DNA from: Apteryx mantelli
Lineage: Eukaryota; Chordata; Aves; Apterygiformes; Apterygidae
NCBI RefSeq assembly: GCF_036417845.1
Contig: NC_089979.1
Location: 25,113,958-25,177,957, forward strand
Length of the DNA: 64,000 nt
Direction: 5' to 3'
Positions 10,905 to 44,328 of the stretch are shown piece after piece. The translations under genes and the position numbers were made by a program. The notes below the pieces were generated by a model. The model searched no databases, was not told where the DNA came from, and saw nothing but the letters and a program-made list of their open reading frames with translations. Within the stretch, counting starts at the first letter, position 1; each line of letters starts with the position of its first letter.

Positions 10905-11055
10905 TTCAGTGGCTTGGTTGCACTACTGGAGCATTACACCAGCAGGGCTACCTTTCTGTGATCACAGAAGGTGATGTAGACTCAATTCTCATTGCAGATG
11001 AGATAGATAGCTTCCAAGGCTGCTTAGAAATTGGCAGGATGCCAATGCTGCTTCA
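10905..11055 (+). repeat. Interspersed repeat segment of unknown class, copy A
   Basis: This segment, including CACCAGCAGGGCTAC near 10937, TGTGATCACAGAAGGTG, TCAATTCTCATTGCAG and AGCTTCCAAGGCTGC near 11009, is matched in reverse complement at 40343-40470. Similarity is roughly 75 to 80 percent by eye. Two diverged copies 29 kb apart in opposite orientation imply an interspersed repeat family. In one frame both copies read VITEG followed by DSILIA, which may be a trace of a coding origin. I do not recognise the family. Confidence 0.6.
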
Positions 11056-36788: not shown

Positions 36789-38037
36789 AAACAGAATAGG
36801 TCTTCCCTCTCGTAGTCGTCACAGCCAAGGGTGCTCAGGCTTCACAGCACCCTGCTACATGAACCATCAGGAGAACAGAACTAGGCTTCCAATGGGAGCC
36901 CTGGGTGCAGGTCATCAAAAGCTCACTGAAATAGAGACATTTTCCTCAGTGACTTCTGTTTCCTTGAACCAGAGTCTTCTGATAACATTTGGTACTGTTG
37001 GAATATTCGCACTGATCTCTAGGTGAAAATTGCAGAAACTAGCCCAAGACTATAGCATAATTATTTAGGGCAGAACATAGAGGAACAACCGAAAGAGCTC
37101 GAATATGTCTACACTGATGTCCCTGCTGCCTTTTACTAGCTAGCTCAGGTATTGACAGCAACGTACACTGCAGTGCAAGAGGCTAAATACACAAAAGAGC
37201 CTGCACACTTTGATTCTGTAATTATATTCTTATCAAATAAACCACATGTTTTTGAGCTAACTTGGCTCCATTTGTATGAACAGCAACCACCTCTTGATTA
37301 AAATGCTATATTAGGAAAACTGTCTTGAATATAAAATGTAGCTGTGAAAACTCCCAAAGATAAATGGTAGAAGACCTATTACAGGGGATATTTAATGTAC
37401 ACTTGAAAAAATACAGAAAACAATTTTGTATAACCAGAGATACGAGTTAATAGGCCTAAAATTCTGTGTTTGCCATCTGTTAATTCAAAGGTCTTTTTTC
37501 CAGCTGTGTAGTGAGTCTTTGCATATTTATTTTTCTAAGTCCTTAGGGCTGACAGAATTCTGAATGTGAAGAGTCTGCCAAAGTGTTCTTCACCTCCCAA
37601 GATACTCATGGGCTATATCAGTCATAATGACAATTTAGCTTTCATGACTAAATACTATTGATGTCAAAGATTTAACGAGAACAGACTTATCCTTTGAAAA
37701 GGGAATAAATTTTATGATTTTTGTCATAACATTTCTATATTTGCATAATATGGTTATATACAATAATGTGAGTTATAATGAAAAATAATGTAAAATTAAT
37801 AAACACTTTGAAGAATACAGTATTTCTTAACAGTGAATTTTTGATTCAGGATTCTGTGCCAAGTCAAAAAAATGAACATGTCAATAAGGAAAATAAATAT
37901 GGTAAATTTCCGAGGTCAAAGCTGGACATGGGTGATTTATCTTCAGGAATCCTTCCTGAAGCACTGCATCAGAAAAAATGGAATTGTTTCAAGATTTGGT
38001 GAAATCCTTCACTACTCTCTCTGAGGAAAGGAGGTCA
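36789..38037. other. Intergenic DNA, no gene seen
   Basis: AT-rich unique-looking sequence between the solo LTR and the satellite array. No gene is supported. Confidence 0.5.
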
Positions 38038-40342
38038 CTGAGTGTTAGCCCAAGTCCCCTAGCTGTAGCCCAGATGAACATGTTCTCAGGTGACAATTTG
38101 TTTTGCACCTGACACCTTCCCTTGGCAGCCCCTTTTGAGCTCCTCCAAAAATACAGCTCCCCACTTTCTCTGTGTCTCAACCCTTACCCTAACCCTATAT
38201 GTATGCAATGTCTGAGAGTTAGCTAAAGACCACCAAGCATTGCCCAGATGAACATGTTCTCTGGGGACAATTTTTTCTGCAACCCACAATACTTTAGCAG
38301 CACCTTTTGAGCCTGTCTCCAAATGGAGCTCTAAGCTTTGATTCTCTCCTGACCCTAAACCTAACTCTAACCATAAAACTGTGTGTTGGCAGAGTCTTAG
38401 CCCAAGACACCCCAGCCATGGCCCAGATTCATATGTCCTCAGTGGATAATTCTGTTTGCACTGCCCTTTTCCCTTTGAAAGCCCCTATACCACCCCATTC
38501 CAAATAAAGCTCCCCACTTTCTTTCTTTTCCAACTCTAACCTTAACCCTTACACAAACCTAAAATATTGGCTGAGATTTAGCCCAAGACCCCAGTTATGG
38601 CTGGGCCCAGATGAAAAAGATCTCAGAGAAGAATGCTTTCTGCATGCCACTCTTTTCTTGGACAGCCCTTTTCCAGTCCCACTTCAAATGCAGTTCTACT
38701 CTGTCTTTCTCCCAATCCTTACCCTAATACTAACTCTAGACCTAGGCATTGGCTGAGATTTAGCCCAAAACGCCTCAGCCATGGCCCAGATGTGTTCTCA
38801 GAAGAGAATACTTTTTCCAGTTCACCTCCTCCCTTGGCAGCCCCTTTCTAGCCCCACTCCAAATGGAGGTCCCAGCTTTCTCTTTTCCAACACCAACTCT
38901 AACTCTAACCCTAAACCTATGCAACAGCTGAAACTTAGCACGAGACCACAAAGCCTTATCCAGATGAACATGTTCTCAGGGGATAATTTTTTCTGCACCC
39001 CAGTCCTTCCTCTTTAGCAATCCCTTTCAAAACCCACTCCAACTGCAGCTTTAAGATTTGTCTCTCTACCAATCCTAACCCTAAGCCTAACCCTAAACCC
39101 ATGCATTGGATGAGACAGCCCAAAATATCCTAGCCATGGCCCAGACAAATATGTCCTCACAGAAGAATCCTTTTTCCAGCTCACCCCTCCCTTGGCAGCT
39201 CCTTTAGAGCCCCACTCCAAATGGAGATTTCCACTTTCTTTCCTAACCCTAACTCTTACACAAACCCTAGGCATTGGCTAAGCCTTAGCTCAAGATGCCC
39301 AGCCATAGCCTAGATAAAAGAGATCTCAGGGGAGAATTCTTTTTGCCCCTCACTCCTCCCTTTGACAGCCCTTTTCCACACCAACTCTCTCTCCCAACCT
39401 TAAACTTAACCCTAACTGTAAACTAGGCATTGGCTGAGACTTAGCCCAAAACATCCTTGCCCTGTCCCAGATAAGAAGAATGTTATGAAAGGATTCTTCT
39501 GGAACCTCGCTCTTCCTTTAGGAGTCCAGCTCCAGATCCACTCCGAATGGAGCGCCACTTCTTCTTTCTCTCCCAATCCTAACCCTAACCCTAATCCTAA
39601 CCCTAGCCCAGTGTTTCAGCTGGGGGTCAGACCCCCACCATGGCCCAGATGAAAAAGATCTGAGGATAATTCTGTTTCCACTTCACACTTCCCGTATGCA
39701 GCCCCTTTCGAGACCCACTGCAACCAAAGCTCCACTCTCTCTCACCCAACCCAAACCTTAACCCTAACCCTAAACATCGGATGAGACTTAGCCCAGGATG
39801 CCAAGCCATAGCCCAGCCATAGCCCAGATGTCCTCAGGGGAGAACTCTTTTTCCAGCACACCCCTTCCCTTGGCAGCCCCTTTCCAAACTCACTCTAAAT
39901 GGAGCTCCCTGCTTTCTACCTCTCCCAACTCAAAACTTACGCATCAGCTGAGACACTGCAAAACATCCCAGGGTTGGCCCAGGTGAACATGATCTCAGGG
40001 AGTAATTCTTCTGGCACCCCTCTCTTACCTTTGACAGCTCCTTTTCAGACCCACTACAACCGGAGCTCCAATCTTTGTCTCTCGCTCAACCCTAACCCTA
40101 ACTCTAAACCAAGATATCAGCTGAGGTTTTGCACAAGACCACCATAGCCCATATGAACATATCCTTGGGGGGGAATTTTTCTGCACCACTTTCCTTCCTT
40201 TGACAGCCCCTTTCCACCCTCACTCTAAGTAGAGCTCTATGCTTTTTCTCTCTCCCAACCCTAGTCCTAAACCTATACATTGGCCAAGACATAGTCCAAA
40301 ACGTGGCCCAGATGAATATATCCTCAAGGGAGAATTATTTTT

Positions 40343-40470
40343 GCAGCTTGATCTTGCAAATTGCTGAGTAGCCTTGGAAGCTATCCCTTGGGCTGCAATG
40401 AGAATTGAATCTGCACCACCTTCTGTGATCACAAACAGGTAGCGCTGGTGGAGGGTATCTCCCTTGCCAT
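40343..40470 (-). repeat. Foreign segment interrupting the satellite, copy B of the unknown repeat
   Basis: Between TTTTTGCAG of one monomer and TCTGCTGAGGCTCAGCC of the next there are about 128 bp unrelated to the satellite. Their reverse complement matches 10905-11055, with shared blocks TGTGATCACAGAAGGTG, TCAATTCTCATTGCAG and AGCTTCCAAGGC. About 100 bp of the expected monomer, including its CCCTAA block, is missing at this site, so the event was a replacement rather than a clean insertion. Confidence 0.65.
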
Positions 40471-41346
40471 CTGCTGAGGCTCAGCCAAAGATGCCCAGCC
40501 AGTGCCCAGATGAAAAAGGTCTCAGAGGAGAATTCTTTCTGCAGACCACCCCTTCCTTTAGCATCCTCTTCCCAAACCCACTCCAAATGGAGCTCTAGCT
40601 TTTACCTCTCTCAACCCTAATCCCAGCCCTCAATGTACATGTTGGCTGAGCCTTAGCCCGAAATTACTTTTCTATAGCCCAGATGAGCATGTCCTCAGGG
40701 GAGAACTCTTTTTGCCACCTGCCCCTTCCTTTTGCAGCTCCTTTCCAATCCCAGTCCAAATGGAGCTCTAGACTTTGTATCTTCTCCCAACCTGAGACTT
40801 AGCCCAAGACCCCCACCATTGTTGAGATGAAAAACTTCTGAGAGAGTAATTCTTTTTGCAGCCCCTTTTTTGCCCCACTCCAAAGAGAGATCCACACTTT
40901 GTCTGTTCCCTGTCCCTAGGCCCTACTGTAGCCACAACTCTAATACCCAACATCAACTAAGACATAGCCCAAGACCAACTGCCATAGCCAAGATTATCAA
41001 GTTTTTGAAGGAGAATTACTTTTGCAGCCTACCCCTTCCTTCGACAACCCATTTCCAGGTTGACTTCAAATTGAGTTCTAGTTTCTGTCCCTTTAAAACT
41101 CTAATTTAATCCAAATGCTAAGGATGGATTGAGCCTAAACCCAAGACCCTGAGCTACCACCCAGATGAAAAAGATCTTAGGAGAAATGATTTTTGCAGCC
41201 TTCCCCTTATTCTGGCTGCTCCTTTGCTGCCCAACACCAGCTGCAGCTCTAGGTTTTCTCCCTCTCCCAACCCCGTATCTAACATTAATGCTAACTCTAA
41301 CCCGAGCCACCAGCTCAGCCTCTCCCAAAACCCCCAGCCATGGCCA

Positions 41347-41392
41347 CCTGGAGAAAATATCTCCAGGCCTTCCTGGAGAAAAGATCTCCAGG
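41347..41392. repeat. Duplicated 21-bp palindrome inside the satellite
   Basis: CCTGGAGAAAATATCTCCAGG (first 20 bases counted from 41347) and a near-identical palindrome at 41372 lie 25 bp apart. Each can fold on itself through CCTGGAGA and TCTCCAGG. The second contains AGATCT. They sit where other monomers have the single CAGATGAAAAAGATCTCAGG-type box, so this monomer has an internal duplication. Confidence 0.8.
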
Positions 41393-41640
41393 AAGAATTC
41401 TTTTTGTGCCCTATCCCTCTTTGGCCACCCTTTGTAGCTCCACTCCAAGTGGACTTCTAGGTGTGATGTCTCTCATGATTCCAGCTATAACCTTAACTCT
41501 AACCCCAATCCTCAGCCTTGGCTAGAATAAACCAAGACACCCAGCCATGACCCAGATGAATAATTTCCCAGGGCAGAATGTTGTATGCTGTATGATCCCC
41601 CCTTCCTTTGGTGGCCATTTTCTAACACTGCCAAGGATGG

Positions 41641-43920: not shown

Positions 43921-44328
43921 ATGGCTGCGGCGAGCTGGCAGGAGGCGGCGGCCCAGCAGGCCGAGGAGGCGGCGGCCCGGGTGCGGGACGTCTTGTCCGG
44001 CGGCCTGGGCCTGCTGCGCACCGAGCTGGGCCTGGAGCTGGGCCTCGACCCGCAGGGCCTCCCGACCTGGCTCGCCCTGGTCGGCCCGGCCGCGTTGGGG
44101 CTGCTGCTGCTGGGACTGCTGTTGGCCGCGGCCTGCGGAGGCGGCTTCCGCAAGAAGCGGGCTCGGAGCGCGGCGGAGCGGAAGGGCGAGGAGGCGGCCG
44201 GCCCGGGCCTGACAGGCGGCGGGGGCCCGAGCAAGGCGGCTGCGGGCGCGGGGACTGGGCAGCTGCTGCTGAAGGGCGAAGAGCAGAAGAAGCGCAACAA
44301 GAAGAAGCTGGTGGAGAAAGCGGCGCGG
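43921..44328 (+). CDS. MTDH: MTDH exon 1 (codons 1-136)
   Basis: Encodes the N-terminal region: an alanine/glutamate-rich amphipathic start, an LRTELGLELGL segment, a membrane-spanning helix at about residues 50-71 (WLALVGPAALG then LLLLGLLLAAA), and basic clusters RKKRAR (77-82) and KKRNKKK (123-129) that act as nuclear or nucleolar signals in the family. The stretch at residues 83-115 is a low-complexity Gly/Ala/Glu linker unlike the mammalian sequence. The exon ends GCGCGG|gtgagg, giving 408 bases and phase 0. Very high GC makes it prone to gaps in assemblies. Confidence 0.95.

Follow-up and report, generated by a model that had tools for sequence, protein, structure and literature searches.

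The window, the whole 64,000-nucleotide stretch of the Apteryx mantelli genome analysed here, contains a relic satellite array of ~175-bp monomers at 38037..41640 on the + strand. The gene that lies 2.3 kb beyond the array is MTDH, whose coding start (43921..44328, + strand) was recognised by a frame from 43921 that matches Pfam LYRIC with an E value of 3e-40. An iterated profile placed 20 complete or almost complete monomers (149-202 bp) and two partial copies of 36 and 75 bp between 38037 and 41626, all of them on the + strand, and the array spans about 3.6 kb. The 9-mers that recur in the array have spacings that peak at 160-189 bp and at multiples of this. An earlier sequence-only reading of this DNA had given about 21 monomers of ~175 bp and the coordinates of the array, and had placed its end 2.3 kb before the MTDH start; the observation is confirmed, and the coordinates are correct. 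Tandem Repeats Finder, which the same reading had proposed as a check, reported only short pieces within the array. With the settings used it missed the ~175-bp period, since the monomer copies are too diverged; k-mer spacing and profiles were used for period detection in its place.

To avoid circularity, a second profile was built that excluded the window sequence and used nine consensuses from elsewhere in the genome. It gave 20 matches in the window (E values from 5.5e-6 to 6.9e-20), all on the + strand and within 38120-41581, and no match when the array was shuffled 20 times with dinucleotides preserved. The reversed sequence of the entire window gave one match (E 7e-4) at 39571-39629, which is the best-kept hexamer run of the array in reversed form. 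Rfam models had no match to 38038-41640 at E values up to 1.

Most monomers carry a telomere-like CCCTAA block, called where the best 18-base match to (CCCTAA)3 exceeded the best of 40 shuffles of the same monomer. The block reached 15-17 of 18 positions, above the monomer's own shuffles, in 15 of the 20 monomers: 1 (38070..38247), 2 (38244..38426), 3 (38423..38601, degenerate), 4 (38607..38789), 5 (38793..38958), 6 (38960..39144), 7 (39141..39313), 8 (39312..39470), 9 (39467..39648), 10 (39645..39816), 12 (39979..40151), 13 (40149..40311), 15 (40506..40682), 19 (41161..41345, degenerate) and 20 (41379..41555, degenerate). Monomer 9 has the best-kept block, at 39575-39609, the only hexamer run of the array that Tandem Repeats Finder reported. 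The five without a block start at 39827, 40308, 40679, 40825 and 40991. In monomers 11 (39827..39982), 16 (40679..40827, truncated), 17 (40825..40992) and 18 (40991..41164) the best match did not exceed the shuffles, and in monomer 14 (40308..40509), which is broken by another dispersed repeat, no block was found. The foreign stretch in monomer 14 (40343..40451) shares 81% identity with the opposite strand of window 10939-11051. A partial monomer at 41552..41626 forms the right end of the array. The block had been attributed to nearly every monomer, a phrase that should be amended to three quarters since it is present in 15 of 20.

The constant orientation and place of the block were upheld. 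Its start lies at model position 103-119 in all 15 block-bearing monomers, the opposite strand of the 20 window monomers never matched (CCCTAA)3 at more than 11 positions, and the exact hexamers of the array are 15 CCCTAA and no TTAGGG. Throughout the genome, a box of the family followed 35-65 bases on by ACCCTAACCCTAA (CCCTAA repeats) occurs 2,592 times with overlapping hits counted, and the backwards control of this pattern 0 times; the same box followed at that distance by TTAGGGTTAGGGT (TTAGGG repeats) also occurs 0 times. In every pattern hit the block points the same way with respect to the box next to it.

The array belongs to a dispersed family. It has 173 matches in its own genome, itself included; the family counts approximately 109 loci among the matches listed, the window included. 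Consensus matches were found on contigs C1, C2, C3, C4, C5, C6, C10, C12, C16 and C44, and a 22-base box occurs 2,543 times in the genome with at most one mismatch (0 times for the backwards pattern). The consensuses of ten arrays can be aligned box for box, and all have the block, in degenerate form in some; the conserved boxes sit at fixed places from locus to locus of the Apteryx mantelli genome, and old arrays, like young ones, carry common boxes in common order at many loci. Several short loci hold only 1-3 monomers, and one locus appears to resemble avian CR1.

Younger arrays lie on C6 from 19.52 Mb and on C3 at 68.73-68.83 Mb and near 24.85 Mb, and those of C6 and C3 show the boxes and the block of the window array in unchanged order. 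Monomer lengths in the three larger young arrays are 182, 186 and 185-187 bp, and the number of hexamers varies in the younger arrays. A 28-mer of the C6 type has 1,779 occurrences when as many as 3 mismatches are allowed, and a 24-mer of the type found on C3 near 24.8 Mb occurs 162 times, with 0 occurrences of either control. In extent the younger arrays range from about 25 kb to at least about 250 kb. On C3 a higher-order repeat of 4.6 kb is present, in which stretches 4,610 bp apart (L035 and L036) are 99.9% identical over 3,289 bp; the next pair (L034 and L035) is 98-100% identical over its first 2.2 kb and then falls out of register. The extent of these arrays and the higher-order repeat lend plausibility, though not proof, to a centromeric or pericentromeric role for the younger arrays. 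Two of the larger arrays share C3, a contig that can have its centromere in no more than one of the two.

Divergence among monomers separates these arrays from the one beside MTDH. Distances were taken from 148 of 173 aligned monomers (those with at least 115 bases), reduced to 128 when the three largest young arrays were thinned to 8 monomers each. The mean distance within an array was 0.02-0.15 for the five young arrays. Of the 13 others, three short ones gave 0.20-0.30 and the remaining 10, among them the window array, 0.34-0.39, which about equals the distance between arrays. Adjacent monomers of the window array differ by 0.355, and so do all pairs. The array is a frozen relic, diverged and homogenised no longer. 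Maintenance of the block by unequal exchange, which had been suggested for this array, is not seen in it, as adjacent monomers are no closer than all pairs, and would fit only the younger arrays elsewhere. The nearest neighbour of a window monomer is another window monomer in 16 of 20 cases, which points to some local growth after seeding.

The window array is not a plain interstitial telomere, and the sequence-only reading was right to set it apart from one. Interstitial telomeric sequences (short ITS and het-ITS) also place TTAGGG/CCCTAA hexamers inside chromosomes (PMC6410037), but there the hexamer is itself the repeated unit, whereas the kiwi unit is a monomer of ~174-187 bp, present at many loci, with the hexamers as one short, fixed box. 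At the window array the period is ~175 bp and the block a minor part of it. Marsupial satellites, and by suggestion those of the frog Boana faber, resemble the kiwi family in having telomere repeats as a native part, in their case of a centromeric satellite, but the available text of that source describes no monomer with one fixed block (PMC9693754). Chicken CNM centromeres also have higher-order repeats; their unit, however, is 41 bp, and the description has telomere repeats forming tracts inside the arrays and not belonging to each unit (PMC9974502). Emu DnoSat05, compared by description only, differs in being located at telomeres. In the portions of the open-access literature available to us, no bird satellite with a telomere block in its monomer was found, and the letters of the monomer were not found in that literature either. 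To that extent the literature agrees with the statement that no named avian satellite has such a structure, but a widespread avian centromeric repeat of ~190 bp with conserved motifs is known.

We consider the array to be, in all probability, a decaying and now isolated outpost of a satellite family that has a CCCTAA block among the fixed boxes of its monomer. Pieces of the active satellite would have been copied to many sites in an old wave, seen mostly on large chromosomes; the seeded pieces would then have grown slightly in place, until exchange ceased and they were left to drift. Unequal exchange or rolling-circle copying may keep the monomers alike in the younger arrays (C6 at 19.5 Mb, C3 at 68.7 and 24.8 Mb). 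The window array most likely does nothing now. The satellite itself is perhaps centromeric, with a design similar to that of the ~190-bp avian centromeric repeats.

Whether the family is in fact that known ~190-bp repeat, with the telomere-like block as one of its conserved motifs, is a question on which we lean slightly towards a negative answer. The repeat of Madsen et al. 1994 is reported from lapwing, flamingo, crane and falcon, with conserved motifs said to be common to several species, and VchSat01-179, 179 bp long, lies at all centromeres of V. chilensis (PMC10887557). The kiwi family shares with it a tandem arrangement, GC near 50% and monomer length, young-array monomers of 182-187 bp standing beside 187 bp in Vanellus spinosus (PMC10887557) and the window at ~175 bp; conserved boxes of its own recur at fixed places between loci of the one genome. 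The comparison is one of length and description, and the description, so far as available, does not mention a telomere-like block (PMC10887557). VchSat01-179 was moreover undetected by FISH in two other shorebirds and is perhaps species-specific (PMC10887557). The 190-bp APL-HaeIII / RBMII repeat of duck, compared by description only, is likewise a centromeric satellite of avian lineage with a similar length, but the main text of a paper on it has no word beginning with 'telomer' (PMC6435179).

Any role for the block in the satellite is inferred. It may be a functional site for proteins of the TRF1/TRF2 type, or a G-quadruplex or i-motif, selected in active arrays as a bird counterpart of the CENP-B box, and this we hold to be rather unlikely. 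A review names some interstitial telomeric sites as targets of TRF1 and TRF2 (PMC6410037), and (TTAGGG)n is often present in chicken centromere cores (PMC9974502). When the ten array consensuses were aligned freely, the best 20-base stretch covered the block start (0.885 against a mean of 0.744), but another 20-bp box was about equally conserved (0.88), and the conservation of the block is inflated because hexamer repeats re-align easily. A higher value for the block, 0.994, was rejected as a measure because its alignment had been fitted to a window-derived model. Four C-runs were present in 16 of 18 C6 monomers examined, but in only 3/12, 3/8, 2/11 and 3/7 monomers of the four other young stretches examined, and in none of the window. 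Identity to the array consensus in the window is 0.795 for the block and 0.766 for the rest, the blocks there having decayed almost to the same degree as the remaining sequence, and the block was kept slightly better than the rest, by 0.03-0.10, in four of five old arrays, the fifth being worse by 0.04. The better-kept block in the four may be an effect of aligning hexamers, or may reflect weak protection.

That the monomers are carried by a transposon or retroposon, the array being an inserted element with internal tandem repeats, is very unlikely in our judgement. The short loci of 1-3 monomers would suit such an origin, as would copies in both directions, which recur at 6 of 17 loci. On either side of L076, a piece of two monomers, stands a direct repeat of 12 bp, a length reached by only 2 of 950 controls; this repeat was noticed by eye and picked out of 19 loci, and is not claimed as proof of insertion. 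Against this, no word common to both flanks of the 19 short loci was longer than 8 bases, a length found at 2 loci and equalled or exceeded by 59 of 950 control pairs; this test used wide edges, so the L076 repeat escaped it. Copy ends also fall at several positions of the monomer, and a check of the window array edges for a target-site duplication found only an 8- and a 9-base word in common. An apparent clustering of the 3' ends of one subfamily at two places, just behind the block and around mid-monomer, is not claimed, the numbers being small and the idea post hoc. The sequence-only reading had also suggested an ancient subtelomeric repeat as the origin, which an inversion or a fusion would have left in the chromosome interior, and to this we give hardly any credence. 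The constant orientation of the block speaks for it, but loci run through chromosome interiors rather than next to chromosome ends, with none less than 8 Mb from a contig end among those listed on the eight contigs C1-C6, C9 and C10. The younger arrays are internal as well, and the window array itself lies 25 Mb inside the 173-Mb contig C2.

Satellite units with a telomere piece unite two chromosome landmarks that are usually kept apart, and some interstitial telomere hybridisation signals could be explained without chromosome fusions. The old copies scattered over the genome are fossils that can be dated. Should the MTDH array have the age that its divergence implies, it would be expected at the corresponding site in chicken and other birds, and a direct test of how old an avian satellite is and how it spread would become possible. 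In the most far-reaching case, which we think distinctly unlikely, the family would be an ancient bird satellite superfamily with a functional telomere box bound by telomere-repeat-binding proteins at active centromeric arrays, and arrays of the MTDH type would be its fossils, predating most bird orders and present at the corresponding site even in distant birds. If the block does bind telomere proteins at centromeres, it would represent a novel type of DNA signal for centromeres.

The satellite upstream of MTDH (LYRIC domain) runs in a single direction from 38038 to 41626, where an iterated profile search recovered 20 full or nearly full and two partial monomers. Because this first profile, seeded with one monomer and then iterated, was trained on the window array itself, a second was built without window sequence, its only input being nine consensuses from elsewhere in the genome. 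It found 20 matches in the window, all on the forward strand within 38120-41581, and none when the array was shuffled 20 times. The reversed window contained a single match (E 7e-4, 39571-39629), which is the array's best-kept hexamer run in reverse. The tandem array described in the sequence-only reading is real. Its period of ~175 bp was not reported by Tandem Repeats Finder but appears in the 9-mers common to the array, whose spacings cluster at 160-189 bp and multiples. Monomer 14 is interrupted by a stretch of ~110 bp (40343-40451) that is 81% identical to 10939-11051 on the opposite strand; it is a dispersed repeat.

Fifteen of the 20 window monomers carry the telomere-like block: their best 18-base match to (CCCTAA)3 scores 15-17 of 18, exceeds 40 shuffles of each monomer and starts at model position 103-119. 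The block is absent from the other five, and reverse-strand matches reach at most 11 of 18. The single orientation and place first proposed for the block thus hold, but its presence in nearly every monomer does not. None of the 20 contains four close C-runs of at least three, so the window array has no classical quadruplex pattern.

Rather than standing alone, the array belongs to a dispersed family. Searched against its own genome (1.504 Gb, 408 contigs), in which the window is C2:25113958-25177957, it gave 173 matches, itself included, and among the matches listed the other places are 64-89% identical. The search with a monomer consensus, proposed as a check, added matches on contigs C1-C6, C10, C12, C16 and C44. 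A 22-base box of the monomer occurs 2,543 times genome-wide with at most one mismatch (backwards control 0), and a box with ACCCTAACCCTAA 35-65 bases behind it was counted 2,592 times, overlapping matches more than once (control 0). With TTAGGGTTAGGGT behind it, this latter box occurs nowhere in the genome; where both boxes survive, their order and orientation are thus constant. When the coordinates of the matches listed, some of them in contig order, are clustered, approximately 109 loci result, window included, some of which rest on one box. Among these, none on C1-C6, C9 or C10 lies less than 8 Mb from a contig end. At C41:635510-635740 only the hexamer part of the query matched, with four matches spaced 24 bp apart; this is a telomere-like repeat, and satellite boxes were not seen in the matches.

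Consensuses of nine other arrays were obtained with Tandem Repeats Finder, seven with 3.1-13.6 copies and two with about two. Together with that of the window they align box by box, with the block, degenerate in some, at the same place. Mismatches to a 17-base test box number at most one in six consensuses and two to five in the other four. In a free alignment of the ten, conservation over 20 bases is highest in TCTCCCAACCCTAACCCTAA (0.885) and CCCTTTGCAGCCCCACTCCA (0.88), against a mean of 0.744 for all columns. The longest hexamer run holds 0-5 exact CCCTAA, with a mode of 3 in three of five stretches examined.

Among known bird satellites, VchSat01-179 of the southern lapwing is described at all centromeres and as matching a 187-bp repeat of Vanellus spinosus with 88% identity over 77%; it was not detected by FISH in two other shorebirds, and Madsen et al. 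1994 are cited there for motifs common to flamingo, crane and falcon (PMC10887557). The main text on a duck 190-bp repeat contains no word beginning with 'telomer' (PMC6435179), and a review describes telomere repeats as a native satellite component in marsupials (PMC9693754). Full-text searches of open-access papers (main text) yielded no paper with the monomer letters and, among the papers listed, no bird satellite monomer with a built-in telomere block.

Some loci in the genome are short, with one to three monomers, and six of 17 loci around one subfamily carry monomers in both directions (L074, C2:153208900-153212100; L079, C2:22530300-22532300; L082, L083, L087, L088). Target-site duplications at 19 short loci were not above control. 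We therefore infer, tentatively, that the monomers were copied by recombination or extrachromosomal circles rather than by a transposon. Satellite copies likewise run in both directions at L031 (C1:175.93 Mb), and at some two-direction loci they stand head to head. The two-monomer piece L076 (C2:125.944 Mb) is flanked by a 12-bp direct repeat (L076:707-718 and 1093-1104), found by eye, that resembles a target-site duplication.

Monomers were compared without the block columns; of 173 rows, the 148 with 115 bases or more were kept, and thinning the three largest young arrays to 8 each left 128 monomers from 18 arrays. Of the 13 arrays outside the young group, ten, window included, have within-array distances of 0.34-0.39, about as between arrays; the short arrays C3:33, C5:77 and C4:70 (contig and Mb) have 0.20-0.30. 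Adjacent window monomers differ by 0.355, as do all 190 pairs, so neighbouring monomers have long since ceased to exchange sequence. Of the 128 monomers, 79 have their nearest neighbour in their own locus (mean 8.7 and maximum 18 after shuffling), with 16/20 in the window, 0/10 at C1:64 and 1/9 at C3:28; signs that arrays grew locally after seeding are thus confined to some loci. At assumed rates of 1.5-2.5e-9 substitutions per site and year, the window's mean Jukes-Cantor distance of 0.487 corresponds to ~97-162 million years, an upper-side estimate because the monomers may have differed at array formation.

Younger members occur in the same genome. From 19.52 Mb on C6 the unit is 186 bp and the mean distance 0.02 (8 monomers). 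A 28-mer of this type occurs 1,779 times genome-wide with at most three mismatches (control 0); every one of the 100 listed places is on C6 at 19.5219-19.5404 Mb. Further satellite matches reach 19.771 Mb, a span with room for ~1,340 units, which implies either a longer array than seen or further units elsewhere. L023 and L024 (C6:19.654 and 19.628 Mb), 26.3 kb apart, share 99.7% identity over 3,229 bp, which points to a recent large duplication within this array. At C3:68.73-68.83 Mb (unit 185-187 bp, distance 0.10), two stretches at a spacing of 4,610 bp share 99.9% identity over 3,289 bp, the next pair, equally spaced, keeps 98-100% identity for 2.2 kb before losing register, and a fourth stretch in a different register is 87-90% identical; this fits a 4.6-kb higher-order repeat. 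The array at C3:24.85 Mb has a 182-bp unit and a distance of 0.09, and its 24-mer occurs 162 times, five of them outside that array among the places listed. Smaller arrays lie at C1:90.9 and C1:175.9 (0.14-0.15). At L059 (C1:90.88 Mb) the satellite stops near a stretch that resembles an avian CR1 retrotransposon.

Identity to the array consensus in block and rest is 0.795 and 0.766 in the window, 0.797 and 0.770 at C1:112.4, 0.782 and 0.751 at C1:64.1, 0.706 and 0.746 at C3:28.1, and 0.829 and 0.727 at C3:94.9. The block of old arrays has thus decayed nearly as far as the rest of the monomer; it may be weakly protected there, though hexamers also re-align easily. The young arrays may have a centromeric role, and the block may have a function. 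Well kept in young satellite only, the block is a box that the monomers have inherited, and the window array is a dead representative of its dispersed family.
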